In this document: positions 24,917-32,221 of the stretch, piece by piece | How positions within the stretch are numbered: position 1 is the stretch's first letter | How the letters are laid out: each line of letters starts with the position of its first letter | NCBI RefSeq assembly: GCF_001931675.1 | Contig: NZ_CP014839.1 | Location: 1,364,001 to 1,428,000 of the forward strand | Length of the DNA: 64,000 nucleotides | Direction of reading: 5' to 3' | Source of the DNA: Pandoraea thiooxydans | GTDB taxonomy: Bacteria > Pseudomonadota > Gammaproteobacteria > Burkholderiales > Burkholderiaceae | The notes under the pieces: generated by a model | The model's database searches: none | Seen by the model: only the letters and a program-made list of their open reading frames with translations | Told to the model about the DNA's origin: nothing | Position numbers and translations under genes: made by a program

Positions 24917-25213
24917 TCAGCGCCCGGGCGAGAGCAGCGCCTCGAACCCGGGGGCGACTTTGGTCGCGTCGAACTCGATGACCTGATATTGCGCAACCTG
25001 CTCCCGATGAAAGGGATCCTCGGCGAGCACGGCGTCGAGTTCCGGCCGAGATAGCCCGTGGGCGAGAATGGCGCCTCCCACGCGCGGCACCTGGGGCCCG
25101 GAGGCCACGAAGTGTCCGGCCGCATAGTGACGCGCCAGATAATCCCTGTGTTCCTGGACGTGGCCCTCGACCACCTCGATGGGTTTCACGTAGCGAAGCA
25201 AAACAATAAACAT
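24917..25213 (-). CDS. YciI-like protein
   Basis: A 98-residue YciI family protein (MFIVLLRYVKPIEVVEGHVQEHRDYLARHYAAGHFVASGPQVPRVGGAILAH). The ferredoxin-like fold carries the conserved H-x-x-H/D positions (H in QEHRDYL) and the SGP motif seen in this family, whose members include small dehydrochlorinase-like or thiol-binding proteins. The biochemical role is unknown. AAGGAG precedes the ATG at 25213. It stands alone, just downstream of the RND outer-membrane gene on the same strand. Confidence 0.85.
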   Translation of the reverse strand: MFIVLLRYVKPIEVVEGHVQEHRDYLARHYAAGHFVASGPQVPRVGGAILAHGLSRPELDAVLAEDPFHREQVAQYQVIEFDATKVAPGFEALLSPGR

Positions 25214-25364: not shown

Positions 25365-26735
25365 CTATCCTTTTGCCGCGAATATGCCGCTGCCGGTCAG
25401 CAGTTGCAGCGCCACGGTGCGCTCGGCGATCTGTTGGGCGTTGGCCTGCAGGGCCAGTTGCTGGTCGAGCAGCGCCTGCGCTTGCCGCTGTGCCTGCGGC
25501 AGGGTGATTTCGCCGGAGCGCAGCGCGGCGCCGGCCGCCTGTGCGGCGCTTTGCAAGGCGGGCAGGGAGGCCCGCAGTGAGGATTGTTCCTGTTGCAGGA
25601 TGGTCAGGTCGGCCAGCGCTCGCGCCACCTCCGTATGCGCCTGCTGCAGGCGCACGCGATAGGCATCGTAGAGCGCGCGGCGCGTGGCGCGCTCTACGGC
25701 GATCCTGCCGGGGCTGCCGTTGAGAATCGGCAGGCTGAAGTCGATGGCGAATCCCAGGGTATGCACGTTGGAGGTGTCGCGCGCGCGGGAGAGCGTCACG
25801 CCCACCGACGGGAACTGCGACAGCACGGCCTTGCGCAGCGTCTGCTCCTGGCTTGCATAGCCGGCGCGCAGGGCCATCAGGTCGGGCCGGATTTTTGGTA
25901 GCCGGTCGAGCGAGCCGGCTGCTGCGCGCACCGCCGCGGGGTCGAAGCGGGGTAATCCGGCGAGGCTCAGCGCCTGCCCGGGCGGCAGTCCGAGCATGGC
26001 GTCGAGCTCGCCTTGCCTGGCCGCGCGCTGGCGCGCGTCGGCGGCCAGTTGTTGCTGTACGGTGCTCAGTACGATCAGATCGGCGTCGGCCGTTGTGCGC
26101 GGCGCGATGCCGGCCGCCGCGGCGGCGCGCTCGCGCCCCAGCCGCGCGGCAATGGCGCGGCGGCGCGTCTGGAGCAACCGGTCGCGCTCGCGCAGCCCGA
26201 CCAGGGCGATGTAGTCGAGCTCGGCCGCCGATGCGGTTTGCCATTCCTGCCACAGGATGCCGAGGTCGACCGCCCGCACGTGCTCGCGAGCGGCCGAGAC
26301 TGCCGCGCCGCGCGTGATCAGTTGATCGAGATCGAGACTCAGGCCGAGGTTGTAGGCGGTAGTGGTGGCGTCGGATTGTCCTTGCGGAATGTCGCGCTCG
26401 GCCGAAAATTTCGGCACGGGCAGCAAGCCGGCGGCGAACGCCTGGGCGCGTGCCACGCCGGCCCGGTCGCGCGCGGCCTGCAGGCGCGGATCGTTGAGTA
26501 CCGCCAGCGCGGCCACTGCCGAGATGTCGAGCGGCGCTTGCAAATCGATGCGTTGCGCGGCAAGCGCGGGCAGTGCGAGCTCGCGCGTGGTCACGCGCGG
26601 GCCGGCGGCGCTGTCGCGCCAGGCGACGTTGTTCGGCAATGGTTTCGGGGTATAGGTCGCACAGGCCGCCAGCACGCCGCACAAGGCAAGCGCCGGGCCG
26701 ATGCGCAGCAGGCGCGGGACGTTCATCGGCTTCAT
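25365..26735 (-). CDS. Outer-membrane efflux factor (TolC/OprM family lipoprotein)
   Basis: A 456-residue outer-membrane channel. The signal peptide ends in a lipobox (LCGVLAAC, lipidated Cys at about residue 24), and two outer-membrane-efflux repeats follow with long helical stretches. It forms the exit duct of the tripartite pump encoded by the four genes before it. Its start overlaps the pump gene's stop (ATGA). It resembles the outer-membrane factor at 59028 (shared LWQEWQ, SQFP/GQFP and LPI-N motifs), so the two pumps are paralogous. It is last in the BlaI-M56 operon. Confidence 0.9.
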   Translation of the reverse strand: MKPMNVPRLLRIGPALALCGVLAACATYTPKPLPNNVAWRDSAAGPRVTTRELALPALAAQRIDLQAPLDISAVAALAVLNDPRLQAARDRAGVARAQAFAAGLLPVPKFSAERDIPQGQSDATTTAYNLGLSLDLDQLITRGAAVSAAREHVRAVDLGILWQEWQTASAAELDYIALVGLRERDRLLQTRRRAIAARLGRERAAAAAGIAPRTTADADLIVLSTVQQQLAADARQRAARQGELDAMLGLPPGQALSLAGLPRFDPAAVRAAAGSLDRLPKIRPDLMALRAGYASQEQTLRKAVLSQFPSVGVTLSRARDTSNVHTLGFAIDFSLPILNGSPGRIAVERATRRALYDAYRVRLQQAHTEVARALADLTILQQEQSSLRASLPALQSAAQAAGAALRSGEITLPQAQRQAQALLDQQLALQANAQQIAERTVALQLLTGSGIFAAKG

Positions 26736-29700
26736 GCCGGCTCCTTGCGTTGCGCCACGCGTGCGAGTTGCTTGCGCCGCCAGTGCAGGTACAGCGCCGG
26801 AATCAGGTTGGTGCTGCGCACCGCGCTCCAGATCAATCCGCCGAGAATCACGACGGCCAGGCCCTGCTCGGGGGCGGCGCCCTCGCCGAGTCCGAGCGCG
26901 GTCGGCAGCATTCCCAGCATGGCGGTGATGGCGGTCAGCATGATCGGGCGAAAGCGCACCTGGATGGCCTCGCGCACGGCTTGCTCCACCGGCATGCCGG
27001 CGGCCTCGTTGTGGCGCACGCGGTCGAGCAGGACGATGCTGTGCCGCAGGCCGATGCCGATCAGCGTCAGAAAGCCGATCATGCCGGTGGCGTTCAGGCC
27101 CACGCCGCTGACCACCAGCGCAACCGTGCCGCCGGTCAGCGCAAGCGGAATTTCGAGCAGCAGGATGGCCGGTATCAGCAGGCCGTCGAATTGCAGCAGC
27201 AGAATGCCGACCATGATCGCGAACGCCGTCAGCGCGGCGACCAGCAGCCCCAGCGCCGCCTGTTCGATCTGCGCGTAGAGCCCGCCGAAGGCGATCCGGT
27301 AGCCGGCCGGCAGGTGCACGTCGGCCAGCGCGTGCCGCACGGCCGCGATGGTGCTGCCGATCGGGCCGTTGGGCGTGGCCAGGATGTCGAGCGCGCGCGC
27401 GCCGGCGATGTGTTCGATCTGGTTGGGGGTGTTGCCGAGTTCGATGCGTGCGAGCTGCGACAGCGGGGTCCAGCCGCCGGGCGTGCGAATCGGCAGCGAA
27501 GCGAGTTGCTCCATGCTGCGCTGCGGCGCGTCGGCCAGCCGCAAATAGAGCGCCAGCGGCACGTTGCCCTCGGGCACGCGGCTGATGATGCTGCCGTTGA
27601 TCAGCGCGTCGAGCTGCGTGTAAAGGGAGGCCGGCGTCATTTTGTGAGCCGCCAGCGCCTGGGTGTCGGGCTCGATTTGCAACTGCGTGACCGGGTAACC
27701 GTCGTTGTTGAAGACGTCGCTCAGCGCGGGTATTTGATGCAGTTTGGCGGCAATGACCTCCGAGAGCTTGCGCAGCTGCGCGACGTTGCTGCCGAACAGA
27801 TGAATCACGAACGGCTGCGGCAGGCCCGACAGGCTCTCGCCGACCCGCTCGATGGTGGGCGTATCGACCGCGAGCTGCACGCCGGGCAGTTGCGATTCGC
27901 GCTGGATGCGCTCGCCGATCGCATCGAGCGCATTGACGCTGACGCCGGGCTTGAGCACCACCTGGATTTCACCCGCGTAGGCCGGCTCCGTATAGGACGT
28001 CGAGGAGGCCGAACCGATGCGCGCATAGACATGCGCGACGGCCGGGTCCTTGAGCAGGCTTTGGGTAATGGTGCCGACCGCCGCGCGCGTGTCGAGCAGC
28101 GAGCTGCCGGGCGGCAGCGTGAAAGACTCGAGCAGCGCTCCCTCGTTGGGTAACGGCAGGAAACTGATCGGCACCAGCACGAGCCCCACCAGGCTCAACG
28201 CCAGCACGCCGAAGGTAATCGCCAGGCTGGTGCGCGGCGCGCGCGCCACCCACTGAAACAGCTTCTCGTTGGCCTGCTGCAGGCGCCGCAGCAGGCGCTG
28301 CCCGCCGCTGGTGCCGGCGCTCGGCCTGGCGCGCAAAAAGCCCAGGCTCAGCGGCGTGAAAGTCAGCGAGACCAGCAGCGAGGCCAGCAGCGCCAGAATC
28401 ATTGCCAGCGAGAAGGGAATGAAGAACAGGCCCACCAGACCGCCGACGAACAGCAGCGGCACGTAGATCGCGATGTTGGTCAGCGTGCCGGTGATGTCGG
28501 GAATCACGATCGACTTCAGGCCGGCCCAGATACCGTCCCAATGCGCGTCGCCCTGCTCCCAGCGGTGATAAATGCTCTCGAGCACGATGATCGCATCGTC
28601 GGCGAGCAGGCCGACGGCGACCGTCAGCGCGCCGAACGTCATCAGATTCAGGTCTTGTCCGAAGGCGTGCAGGGCGGCAATGGCCAGCGCCAGCGAGAGC
28701 GGGATACTGGTGGCCAGGGCGACGATGCCGCGCCCGGCGCCCAGCACCCAGAACAGCACCAGCACCGCGAGCGCCGCGCCGATCAGCAGGTTGCGGCCCA
28801 GATCGGTGCCTACCAGATGCACCAGATGGCCCTGGCTGTAGGTGCGCACCCAATGAACGCCGGACGGCAACTGCGGCAGCGTCTGCTCGAGTGTGCGTTG
28901 CACCGCGCCGGTGACCGCCAGCGTGGAGGCGCCTGGCTGCTTGACGATGGTCAGCGCGATGCTGGGGCGGCCGTCCAGCGCGACGGCATTGTGCGTCGGC
29001 ACGCCGGCGCGCACGATGCGCGCCAGTGCGCTCAGCGATATGACCCCGTGCGGCGTCGTCACCGGCACCCGCTCGAGCTGCGCGATGTGCACCGGCAGGT
29101 GGCGCGCCTCGATCAGCACGTCGTTGTGGCCCATGGTCACGAAGCCGGCCGGCTCGAGCAGCACCTGCGCCTTGACCGCCCGCGCCAGCGCCGTCACCGG
29201 CACGCCATAGCGCCGCATCGCGTCGAGATCGGGCTGAATCCAAAGCGCCTCGTCACCCGTGCCGAACACATGCACGAATTGCACCCCCGGGATCGCCCGC
29301 AGCGCCGGCACGACGTTCGCGCGCACCGCTCGCTGCACCTGTGCGGGTGCGACGTCGGCTGGAATCTGCGCGGTGTAGTCGGCCACCTCGTTGATCGCAT
29401 TGCCCATGATCTGCGCGACCGGATCGACCTGCGGCGGCAAATCGGGGCGGGCCCGATCGAGCGCGCCGTTGATGCTTTGCAGATCGAGCTGCGCGTTGCT
29501 GCCCTGGCGAAACCGCACGTCGATCTCGACCGTGCCGTTGCCCATCGTCGAGCGCACGCTGGCGAGGTTGGTCAGCGTCAGGATCTGGCTCTCCAGCGGA
29601 TTGACCACCAGCCGCTCGAGCTCGGTGGCGGTGGTGCCCGGCAGGTGCGCTGTGACGCTGACTTGCGGAAAGTCGAACTGCGGCAGTACTTCGACAGGGG

Positions 29701-29803
29701 TATGGACGAACGCGTAGGCGGCATAGAGCAGCACCCCGCCGAGCACGAGCAACCATAGTACCGGGCGCTGCAGCACGCGCGATAGCGAGACGTTCCTGTT
29801 CAT
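26732..29803 (-). CDS. RND efflux pump inner-membrane subunit
   Basis: A 1023-residue RND permease with the expected two halves, each with one helix, a large periplasmic loop and a helix bundle. The proton-relay pair in TM4 is D402-D403 (VGLLADDAIIVLES), as in drug-type RND pumps. The opening (RPVLWLLVLGGVLLYAAYAFVHTPVEVLPQFDFPQVSVTAHLPGTTATELERLV) places it in the broad CusA/MdtB-related group but outside the well-known heavy-metal or AcrB clades. The substrate is unknown. It sits between the adaptor (6 bp upstream) and the outer-membrane factor in the BlaI-controlled operon. Confidence 0.92.
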   Translation of the reverse strand: MNRNVSLSRVLQRPVLWLLVLGGVLLYAAYAFVHTPVEVLPQFDFPQVSVTAHLPGTTATELERLVVNPLESQILTLTNLASVRSTMGNGTVEIDVRFRQGSNAQLDLQSINGALDRARPDLPPQVDPVAQIMGNAINEVADYTAQIPADVAPAQVQRAVRANVVPALRAIPGVQFVHVFGTGDEALWIQPDLDAMRRYGVPVTALARAVKAQVLLEPAGFVTMGHNDVLIEARHLPVHIAQLERVPVTTPHGVISLSALARIVRAGVPTHNAVALDGRPSIALTIVKQPGASTLAVTGAVQRTLEQTLPQLPSGVHWVRTYSQGHLVHLVGTDLGRNLLIGAALAVLVLFWVLGAGRGIVALATSIPLSLALAIAALHAFGQDLNLMTFGALTVAVGLLADDAIIVLESIYHRWEQGDAHWDGIWAGLKSIVIPDITGTLTNIAIYVPLLFVGGLVGLFFIPFSLAMILALLASLLVSLTFTPLSLGFLRARPSAGTSGGQRLLRRLQQANEKLFQWVARAPRTSLAITFGVLALSLVGLVLVPISFLPLPNEGALLESFTLPPGSSLLDTRAAVGTITQSLLKDPAVAHVYARIGSASSTSYTEPAYAGEIQVVLKPGVSVNALDAIGERIQRESQLPGVQLAVDTPTIERVGESLSGLPQPFVIHLFGSNVAQLRKLSEVIAAKLHQIPALSDVFNNDGYPVTQLQIEPDTQALAAHKMTPASLYTQLDALINGSIISRVPEGNVPLALYLRLADAPQRSMEQLASLPIRTPGGWTPLSQLARIELGNTPNQIEHIAGARALDILATPNGPIGSTIAAVRHALADVHLPAGYRIAFGGLYAQIEQAALGLLVAALTAFAIMVGILLLQFDGLLIPAILLLEIPLALTGGTVALVVSGVGLNATGMIGFLTLIGIGLRHSIVLLDRVRHNEAAGMPVEQAVREAIQVRFRPIMLTAITAMLGMLPTALGLGEGAAPEQGLAVVILGGLIWSAVRSTNLIPALYLHWRRKQLARVAQRKEPA

Positions 29804-29809
29804 GACGGC

Positions 29810-30904
29810 TTAGTCCGGCGGCTGATACGAGTGGGCGATGCCGCGGTGATACTCGAGGAAGGCGTCCTGCGCGACGACCTGTTCGCCGGGCCGCAGGCCC
29901 GAGGCGATCCAGGTCTGCCATCCGCGAGTCGGGCCGGGCACGACCCGGCGCGGCTCGTCGCCGTGCGCGGTGCGCACCATCACCCACCAGTTGCCGCGAT
30001 CGAGAATCAGCGACGCGGTGGGCACCGCGAGCATCGCCCGCGGCGCGCCGTCGAGCGTGACCGTGCCCCATTGGCCGCTCGCCCACGGTACGGCACCCGC
30101 GGCCCGCGCGGGGCTCAGCCCGACTTGCGTGCCGCCGTCGGCGTCGAGTGCCGCGCCGACCGTGGTGACCTTGACCGCGAGCGGCGTGCCGCCGCCGGCC
30201 GGCTCGAAACGGCCGCTCATGCCCACATGCACCGCCGCGGCGTCCACGCCGAAGTATTCGGCGCGAATCCAAAGCTTGCCGGCCGGCTGCAGGGTCAGCA
30301 GCGTCTGACCGGGCGTGAGCTCCTCGCCGTCGGCGGCCTGCACGGAGACCACTGCGCCGGCGGTGGGCGCCTTCAAGACCTGCAGATCGCGGGCTTCGTC
30401 GAGCTGGGCCTGCGCGGTTTGCCGGGCCGCTTGCGCGGCGGCAAGTTCGCTGGCCGCGGCGTCCACCGCCTGTCGGGTGCTCAGTTGCGCCGCGAGCTGG
30501 CGACGCGCGATCGCCAGCGCCTGGCGCGCCGTATCGAGCCGTGCCTGGGCACTGCGCACGGCGCTCTCGCGTTGCGTGAGCAAGGCCTGCATGCGCGTGC
30601 CGGTGAGTCTGGCGAGGACTTCGCCGACGCTTACCACGCTGCCCGGCAGCACGCGCAGCTCACGCACTACCCCGGCATTGACCACGCGAACCTTGACCAT
30701 CGCGGTGGGCACGACCTGGCCGTAGGCGCTCAGGCGCGGCGAGAATGTTTTGGCTTGCACGGTCACCGCGGCCGGCGCTGGCGTGGCGGCAGCCTGCGCT
30801 GCAGCGGCGGCGTGCGTCAGGCCCGCGCCGCCCAGGCAGAGCATGGGAGCGAGCAGCCACGCGGCCGTCGCGCGCCGTTGGCGAATCGGCAGATGAGTTT
30901 TCAA
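29810..30904 (-). CDS. RND periplasmic adaptor (membrane fusion protein)
   Basis: A 364-residue adaptor with a signal peptide (KTHLPIRQRRATAAWLLAPMLCLGGAGLTHA). A split lipoyl domain (SPRLSAYGQVVPTAMVKVRVVNAGVVRELRVLPGSVVSVGEVLARL ... LKAPTAGAVVSVQAADGEELTPGQTLLTL) flanks a coiled-coil hairpin (about residues 105-175), followed by beta-barrel and membrane-proximal domains. The best start is a TTG at 30904 whose last two bases overlap the M56 stop; no ATG would keep the signal peptide. Coupled, weak initiation may set pump stoichiometry. Confidence 0.88.
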   Translation of the reverse strand: MKTHLPIRQRRATAAWLLAPMLCLGGAGLTHAAAAAQAAATPAPAAVTVQAKTFSPRLSAYGQVVPTAMVKVRVVNAGVVRELRVLPGSVVSVGEVLARLTGTRMQALLTQRESAVRSAQARLDTARQALAIARRQLAAQLSTRQAVDAAASELAAAQAARQTAQAQLDEARDLQVLKAPTAGAVVSVQAADGEELTPGQTLLTLQPAGKLWIRAEYFGVDAAAVHVGMSGRFEPAGGGTPLAVKVTTVGAALDADGGTQVGLSPARAAGAVPWASGQWGTVTLDGAPRAMLAVPTASLILDRGNWWVMVRTAHGDEPRRVVPGPTRGWQTWIASGLRPGEQVVAQDAFLEYHRGIAHSYQPPD

Positions 30905-31800
30905 AATGTCCAGGCGAGTAATGGATGCAGAATGCGTTCGCCGTAGAGCGCGCCGAGTATGCCGGCGGCCATCAGCAGGCATATGAAACGTGCCTCGATC
31001 TGCAGGAAGCGGGTCATCGCGCGAGGTGCCGCCGGGGCTTCGGCCAGCGGGGCCAGCAGCAGGGCAACGCGTCGTTGCAGCGCTTGCGGGTCGCCCGTCA
31101 GGCAGGCATGCGCGCTCAGATGCGTGCGACTGCGCCGCGCCTGTGCTTCGGCGCCCGAGGCCGAGCGCCGCAAGGTGCTCAGCAACGCGGCGGCCAGCGC
31201 CGTGCCGGAGGCGCCATGCCGCCGCGCCTCGTCGTCGCGCGCCAGCTCCAGCGCCTCGAGCCAGGAATCGAAACGCTGCCGCGCGCCTGGCCACGGCCAT
31301 TGCAGATCGGTCGCAAGCTGGGCCAGCCAGATGCGCAGCGGATCGCGGTGCTCGACGTGCGCCTGTTCATGGCGCCAGGCCGCGTCGATCATGTCGTCGT
31401 CGAGCGTCTTGGCAAGAAACGGAGAGAACAGAATTTGCGGCCGCAGCAGGCCGACGGTGCAAACGCCGGTGCCCGCATCGAAAGGCTCGCGCGTGAGCGC
31501 CCAGACCGCGCGCAGCGCCGCGCGCCACACCACCACGGCAAACGGCACGCATGCGCCGATCAGCACCCAGCGATCGAGGTGGTCGTGCACCGGATCGGGT
31601 TCGCGCAGCGCCCAGCCGCACAGCCAGGCGGCGACCATCAGCGCGGGCATGACCGGCAGCCACAGGCGCAGCCAGGCGCGGCGTTCGGCGCTGCGGCCAT
31701 CGGGCGCGGGCGTCGTGCGCAGCGATATCATCGCGAACGGCTGGACCGCCAGGCCGCCGAACAGGATCAGCAGAACCGTCAACAGCGATTCACGTTCCAT
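30901..31800 (-). CDS. BlaR1-like M56 metallopeptidase lacking a penicillin sensor domain
   Basis: A 299-residue membrane protein of peptidase family M56. Helices lie at about residues 5-25, 45-65 and 78-95, and the zinc motif HEQAH is at 144-148 in AAWRHEQAHVEHRDPLRIW. A last helix (ARFICLLMAAGILGALYG) is near residue 275. True BlaR1/MecR1 add a ~250-residue extracytoplasmic penicillin-binding domain; here the protein stops after the last helix, so beta-lactam sensing is unlikely. By analogy it should cleave the BlaI-type repressor encoded next to it (11-bp gene overlap) on a signal, perhaps membrane or cell-wall stress. It is followed by three efflux genes. Confidence 0.88.
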   Translation of the reverse strand: MERESLLTVLLILFGGLAVQPFAMISLRTTPAPDGRSAERRAWLRLWLPVMPALMVAAWLCGWALREPDPVHDHLDRWVLIGACVPFAVVVWRAALRAVWALTREPFDAGTGVCTVGLLRPQILFSPFLAKTLDDDMIDAAWRHEQAHVEHRDPLRIWLAQLATDLQWPWPGARQRFDSWLEALELARDDEARRHGASGTALAAALLSTLRRSASGAEAQARRSRTHLSAHACLTGDPQALQRRVALLLAPLAEAPAAPRAMTRFLQIEARFICLLMAAGILGALYGERILHPLLAWTF

Positions 31801-32185
31801 GGCCCGGCCCTCGTTTGGCTTGGATGGCGCGCTCGAGGTCTTCGAGCAGCACCGGATCGATCTCGTCGACCGCGTCGACCAGGGCGGCCACTGCCGCATG
31901 CGGCGCCGCGCCGAGAAAGCGGGTCATCAGATGACGTGCGCGGGCGCGCTCGACTTCCTGCTGATTGACGGCCGGGCTGTAGACGAAACCGCCTGCCTCG
32001 CGACGGCGCTCGATCAGGCCCTTCTCGCGCAGCCGGTCGACGACTTTCGCGGTGGTCGTGTAGGCGCGCCCGGCGGGCTCGCCCAGGCGCTCGTGCAAGG
32101 TTCGGACGGATCCCGTGCCGAGCTGCCAGAGCAGGCTCAGCACCGCGTATTCCAGATCGTCGGCAGGGAGTCGATAACGTGTCAT
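31790..32185 (-). CDS. BlaI/MecI/CopY-family repressor
   Basis: A 131-residue BlaI-type protein. The winged helix (YRLPADDLEYAVLSLLWQLGTGSVRTLHERLGEPAGRAYTTTAKVVDRLREKGLIERRREAGGFVYSPAV) carries the typical AYTT-T-K recognition helix. The C-terminal part (about 75-125) is the dimerisation and proteolysis-sensitive region. It is first in a five-gene operon: repressor, M56 protease, adaptor, RND pump, outer-membrane factor. A perfect 18-bp palindrome between its -35 and -10 is the expected operator. No ribosome site precedes the ATG, and the predicted transcript start nearly coincides with it, so the mRNA may be leaderless. Confidence 0.93.
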   Translation of the reverse strand: MTRYRLPADDLEYAVLSLLWQLGTGSVRTLHERLGEPAGRAYTTTAKVVDRLREKGLIERRREAGGFVYSPAVNQQEVERARARHLMTRFLGAAPHAAVAALVDAVDEIDPVLLEDLERAIQAKRGPGHGT

Positions 32186-32191
32186 GCGGCG

Positions 32192-32221
32192 ATGTTACGA
32201 CGTTCGTCGTAAATTGGTCAA
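32192..32221 (-). promoter_or_regulatory. BlaI-type operator inside the efflux-operon promoter
   Basis: The minus strand shows a -35 TTGACC (32221-32216), an 18-bp spacer and a -10 TAACAT (32197-32192). The palindrome TTACGACGTTCGTCGTAA occupies 32195-32212, eight-base arms around TT. It resembles the TACGAC-type dyads bound by BlaI proteins of other bacteria. Bound repressor would block the spacer and -10. The same 80-bp region must also carry the promoter of the divergent DUF72 gene. Confidence 0.8.

Follow-up and report, generated by a model that had tools for sequence, protein, structure and literature searches.

The closest described systems to the one reported here are BlaR1/BlaI and MecR1/MecI of Staphylococcus and Bacillus licheniformis, in which a BlaI-family repressor and an M56 gluzincin are encoded by adjacent genes. 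In the 64,000-nucleotide stretch of Pandoraea thiooxydans DNA analyzed here (contig NZ_CP014839.1, positions 1,364,001 to 1,428,000; hereafter the window), such a pair stands at the head of a gene set for a tripartite efflux pump of the resistance-nodulation-division (RND) type, and not of a beta-lactamase or PBP2a gene. Known heavy-metal RND operons are controlled mostly by two-component, MerR or sigma-factor regulators. A BlaR without a sensor domain has already been found in mycobacteria (BlaI/BlaR, Rv1846c/Rv1845c; PMC9834060, PMC5473688), and the missing domain is therefore not in itself new. The mycobacterial BlaI has targets beyond beta-lactamase (PMC5473688); those reported are the blaC, cytochrome bd and ATP synthase genes, with no RND pump in the same operon, unlike in the window. 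The window operon is likely to be a proteolytic switch of the BlaR1/BlaI type that has no beta-lactam sensor and controls the pump.

The operon runs from 32221 to 25365 on the minus strand, in the order promoter, blaI, M56, adaptor, RND permease and outer-membrane factor. The repressor gene (31790..32185) encodes a BlaI/MecI/CopY-family protein of 131 aa (Pfam PF03965, E=1e-20), whose family profile matched the solved chain 2g9w and the structures of S. aureus BlaI and MecI. It overlaps by 11 nt the gene for a BlaR1-type M56 membrane metalloprotease of 299 aa (30901..31800), which in turn overlaps by 4 nt (TTGA) the gene for a periplasmic adaptor, or membrane fusion protein, of 364 aa (29810..30904; TTG start at 30904; NCBIfam RND_mfp above its cut-off). 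After a gap of 6 nt follows the RND permease, here called type A (26732..29803; 1023 aa; Pfam ACR_tran, E=1e-185), and this frame overlaps by 4 nt (ATGA) that of a TolC/OEP-family outer-membrane factor of 456 aa with a lipoprotein-like N-terminus (25365..26735; Pfam OEP, E=4e-11). Adaptor, permease and outer-membrane factor are thus encoded together, as in a tripartite RND efflux operon. An earlier note on this DNA had described one operon of five genes with overlapping or near-touching frames, and the frame coordinates and the Pfam and NCBIfam matches agree with that description.

The M56 protein carries the motif HEQAH at residues 144-148. The functional residues of S. aureus BlaR1 are H201ExxH205, D210 and E242xxxD246 (PMC9834060), and their equivalents H144, E145, H148, D153, E185 and D189 were invariant in all 25 M56 sequences compared. 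The score against Pfam Peptidase_M56 (PF05569) was 27.6 bits (E=2e-6), under the gathering score of 31, which is a detection threshold and not a structural feature; the assignment therefore rests on the catalytic motif and the fold. A search of PDB sequences with the M56 profile gave chance matches only. An AlphaFold2 model (pLDDT 75.6), for which the window protein was combined with 19 relatives, was compared with known folds; its top five matches were all BlaR1 cryo-EM entries (Z 9.3-11.1, 193-210 residues aligned), the best being S. aureus BlaR1 with Z 11.1 over 210 residues. The sixth match was Ste24p, another gluzincin, at Z 6.2, and the first non-gluzincin scored 4.2. Foldseek alone also placed BlaR1 first, with a weak E-value of 0.16.

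Hydropathy and charge gave four transmembrane (TM) helices, with a positive loop (25-48) inside and an acidic loop (67-77) outside, as has been described for BlaR1. About 10 residues follow TM4, and the protein therefore has no C-terminal sensor domain. A receptor of the BlaR1 type proper carries an extracellular domain resembling a penicillin-binding protein (PBP) at that end, so that the locus, by its anatomy, would work like BlaR1/BlaI and yet lacks the feature that defines a BlaR1 receptor. The earlier description of a 299-residue M56 protein with HEQAH and no penicillin-binding domain was correct on this point. The first extracellular loop also differs, since that of BlaR1 is long and plugs the sensor site, whereas the TM2-TM3 loop of the window protein has about 10 conserved residues; a nearly invariant motif, WLCGWALxxPDPV, spans TM2 into this loop. 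We infer that this loop may be the sensing element. Cys61 was considered as an essential sensor residue and was rejected, because Ala occupies that position in three genomes of another genus.

A palindromic operator within its own promoter is a feature of the BlaI/MecI family, and one is present here at the level of sequence, with binding predicted. The perfect 8+2+8 inverted repeat TTACGACG-AA-CGTCGTAA (32195..32212, minus strand), overlooked in the earlier note, lies upstream of blaI within the spacer of a sigma-70-like promoter (32192..32221). The promoter, TTGACC-18-TAACAT, was called independently of the repeat and has 9/12 consensus matches, and shuffled regions averaged 0.5 sites. The operator core TACGACNNNNGTCGTA (TACGAC-N4-GTCGTA; 32196-32211), which differs from the operators of BlaR1/BlaI and MecR1/MecI, was found once in the 4,464,185-base genome, at the blaI promoter, and no further regulon members were found there since the core is absent elsewhere. 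Only 6 nt separate the -10 box from the blaI ATG (window 32192-32185), with similar spacing in the relatives, and a leaderless blaI mRNA is therefore predicted.

Upstream DNA could be read for 21 loci of the family, the window included; the core was exact in 19 of them, had one mismatch in L030 and was not found at the usual place in L035. It spans -26 to -11 from blaI, starting 26 nt upstream in nearly all loci (27 in L024, and 29 in L034 by the start codon chosen there). The remaining upstream DNA diverges between loci, and the -35 TTG and the final T of the -10 box are largely retained. Genome-wide, most relatives had exactly one operator site, and the reversed control pattern gave 4 sites in 21 genomes. 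In a held-out set of three genomes from another genus of the same order (one complete), found by an M56 profile search, the operator was at -26 and the gene order was BlaI-M56-adaptor-RND in all three.

Extra exact sites were also observed. In G107 and G108 a second operator lies upstream of the pump. The extra site in G110, a metagenome-assembled genome, belongs to a second BlaI-M56 copy; that genome has two diverged modules (L043, L024) with an operator at each, and a mixture of strains is possible. The extra sites in G111, inside an ilvD-like coding frame, and in G121, before a TonB-receptor-like gene, are possibly due to chance. In L035, where blaI has no site at the usual place, an exact operator-like site (2983-2998, equal to L055 1501) stands ahead of a TonB-receptor-like gene.

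The arrangement is not unique to this strain, an explanation that was discarded because the pair is present in 22 named loci (L014-L035), taken here as the family, and in the three held-out genomes. It was seen again in numerous environmental Proteobacteria that are not related to one another, where the pump is not always of one kind; within the genus, the M56 gene was found in 3 of about 32 genomes. BlaI precedes M56 in the named loci wherever the contig allows, and an RND pump directly follows the pair in 18 of the 22. In 12 loci the permease is orthologous to that of the window (68-93% identity), with an intervening adaptor at 46-87% identity. Six loci carry an unrelated CusA/CzcA-like permease, type B, at 27% identity, in the order outer-membrane factor-adaptor-permease. 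M56 and type A permease identities were correlated (r = 0.80), which vertical descent alone could also produce. The earlier note had proposed checking conservation of gene order, and it is conserved in the 12 loci and the three found later, so that chance does not account for it. Its claim that the BlaI/M56 pair is wired to the pump is supported by the single-copy conserved operator, the one promoter, the coupled genes and an order kept across orders and phyla.

In the M56 tree the type B loci were found in two places, which marks the switch as the constant part. Two of these loci, L021 and L022, fall with strong support inside the type A group, and hence the switch was kept there when the pump was exchanged. 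In both, a second exact operator follows M56 and precedes the genes of the new pump.

Among solved sequences, ZneA was nearest to the window permease, followed by MdtB and MexK. The operon resembles CzcCBA, CusCBA and ZneCAB in its complete set of adaptor, permease and outer-membrane factor and in this nearest structure, and a sister BlaI-M56 lineage stands before genuine CzcA-family pumps. P-type ATPase genes flank L015 and L025, one in L025 being of the heavy-metal type and accompanied by a MerR gene, and several of the host metagenome-assembled genomes presumably come from acid or contaminated sites, judging from their titles. Unlike those metal exporters, the type A permease has a DD pair in TM4, as in HAE-like pumps, and an Arg in TM10 at the position of AcrB Lys940; both features make a metal substrate less certain. 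It also missed the CusA/CzcA cut-off (TIGR00914) with 401 against 701 bits, where type B permeases reached 549-669 bits, and a metal substrate is therefore only suggested. On balance, we lean toward metals or envelope stress as signal and substrate. Genes for VTT-PAP2-LssY fusions lie immediately upstream of blaI in L023 (2381-4426), L025 (7262-9295) and L028 (1185-3230), which keeps an envelope-lipid signal conceivable. A VTT-domain protein is also encoded directly 3' of the pump in L034 (16425-17774).

These DedA/PAP2-type neighbors also fit an explanation in which M56 would rely on a separate partner, a kinase or PBP, to sense peptidoglycan or beta-lactam damage and the pump would export cell-wall-active compounds, as does the mycobacterial BlaR, likewise sensor-less, for which PknB has been proposed as a partner (PMC9834060). 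We consider this unlikely, as the sister lineage has pumps that belong to metal-exporter families, P-type ATPase genes adjoin two of the loci, and no gene with the penicillin-binding transpeptidase domain PF00905 was found within the window, all six of the genome lying outside it. The statement that no beta-lactamase or PBP gene is nearby thus holds for PBPs; beta-lactamases had no separate search.

The winged-helix Penicillinase_R domain of the window BlaI scored 74.3 bits against a Pfam cut-off of 22.6. BlaI belongs to the same repressor superfamily as CopY, which governs metal export (TIGR02698, E=1e-10, far below the cut-off), and several of the linked pumps are of the metal type; BlaI itself might thus be the sensor, with a metal or ligand altering its DNA binding and M56 acting as a secondary or turnover protease. 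Unlike CopY, however, the window BlaI has no cysteine at all, which rules out a CopY-type metal site, and it is paired with an adjoining M56 protease that is catalytically invariant in the relatives examined, so that sensing by BlaI is improbable. BlaI-M56 occurs without an adjacent RND gene in four related loci and beside other genes in the wider family, as would be the case if the pump genes were mere neighbors of an autoregulated pair with no regulatory coupling. This is highly improbable, however, for the frames overlap or touch through to the outer-membrane factor, adjacency is kept in 18 of 22 loci and a second operator lies ahead of the swapped pump.

Several observations count against a proteolytic switch that controls the pump. 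The Asn101-Phe102 cut site of staphylococcal BlaI aligns with Ala101-Leu102 in the window BlaI, so that the Asn-Phe pair is replaced by Ala-Leu; Leu102 itself was invariant in 18 sequences. The fold match comes from a model of moderate confidence, with the pLDDT and Foldseek values given above, and the blaI gene of L035 has no operator at the usual place. Four loci (L020, L030, L031 and L035) have no adjacent RND gene, and the switch is therefore not pump-specific. The description of the system as self-contained accordingly stands with regard to the single operator site in the genome and is weakened by these four loci. An outer-membrane factor gene was seen upstream of blaI in L020, a gene for an exporter of the major facilitator superfamily upstream of it in L030, and a beta-propeller/phosphoesterase protein nearby in L031 and L035.

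If the operon is a proteolytic switch, BlaI dimers would occupy the inverted repeat in the spacer between the -35 and -10 boxes and keep the operon off. The signal, for which a toxic metal or a compound acting on the envelope is the most likely candidate, would arrive at the membrane or its periplasmic face, be received by the TM2-TM3 loop with its WLCGWALxxPDPV motif and by the flanking helices, and activate the HExxH/ExxxD zinc protease, which faces the cytoplasm. This protease would then cut BlaI, probably before the invariant Leu102, allowing joint transcription of blaI, the protease and the pump. After export of the compound, fresh BlaI would re-establish repression.

A wider survey covered 274 genomes sampled from the class and gave 29 M56 matches. 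Four loci from this survey (L075, L078, L079 and L082), together with L036, encode BlaI, an RND pump of the heavy-metal type and a sensor-less M56 protein of about 320-350 residues; the L036 permease scored 1412 bits against the CusA/CzcA cut-off of 701. Coupling of BlaI-M56 to RND pumps therefore occurs in at least two M56 lineages. Several of these five have a different palindrome, of the type AACCGATT-N3-AATCGGTT, upstream of blaI. A different, long palindrome of the type AAAACCGATTG-N-CAATCGGTTTT was also seen about 60-80 nt before blaI in a sister BlaI family (L036, L075 and L077-L080), several of which precede CzcCBA-type operons. The closest relatives of the pump outside the clade (54-55% identity) stand beside two-component genes in Paraburkholderia, including a 54% homologue adjoining a two-component system on a Paraburkholderia plasmid, and a two-component neighbor is probable for the relative in G068, given a histidine-kinase-like open reading frame. 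Carriage of the module by plasmids or phages was rejected, as the M56 protein had no match in plasmid or phage collections. About 150 nt past the outer-membrane factor gene lies a YciI-like gene (window 24917-25211, minus strand; about 98 aa) for which Pfam gave no match; it was also present in the Pandoraea relative L016 (16595-16891), and none was noticed in the remaining lineages.

Taken together, we tentatively suggest, with a little less than even confidence, a hitherto undescribed portable repressor-protease class of Gram-negative bacteria, in which sensor-less BlaR1 proteases would sense toxic metals or envelope stress through a periplasmic loop of about 10 residues and their own TM helices and, by cutting BlaI, would release interchangeable RND pumps from repression. 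The class would comprise at least two lineages, each with its own operator, and would stand in for the usual two-component systems. The earlier note called the system undescribed. Searches of the open-access literature turned up no account of an RND pump under the control of a BlaI/M56 pair, which is weak evidence since most subscription journals lie outside that coverage; the claim may stand for the coupling to a pump, and it fails for the missing sensor domain, which mycobacterial BlaR shares.

BlaR1 is the classic example of a protease that removes a repressor in response to an antibiotic. A natural BlaR1-like protease that has no sensor and a minimal loop, and whose predicted operator is joined to an output that can be scored, the pump, would isolate for study the step in which the membrane part relays the signal, and the operator motif offers a simple search handle for more such systems. 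If the proposed mechanism is true, a proteolytic switch also governs efflux in Gram-negative bacteria.

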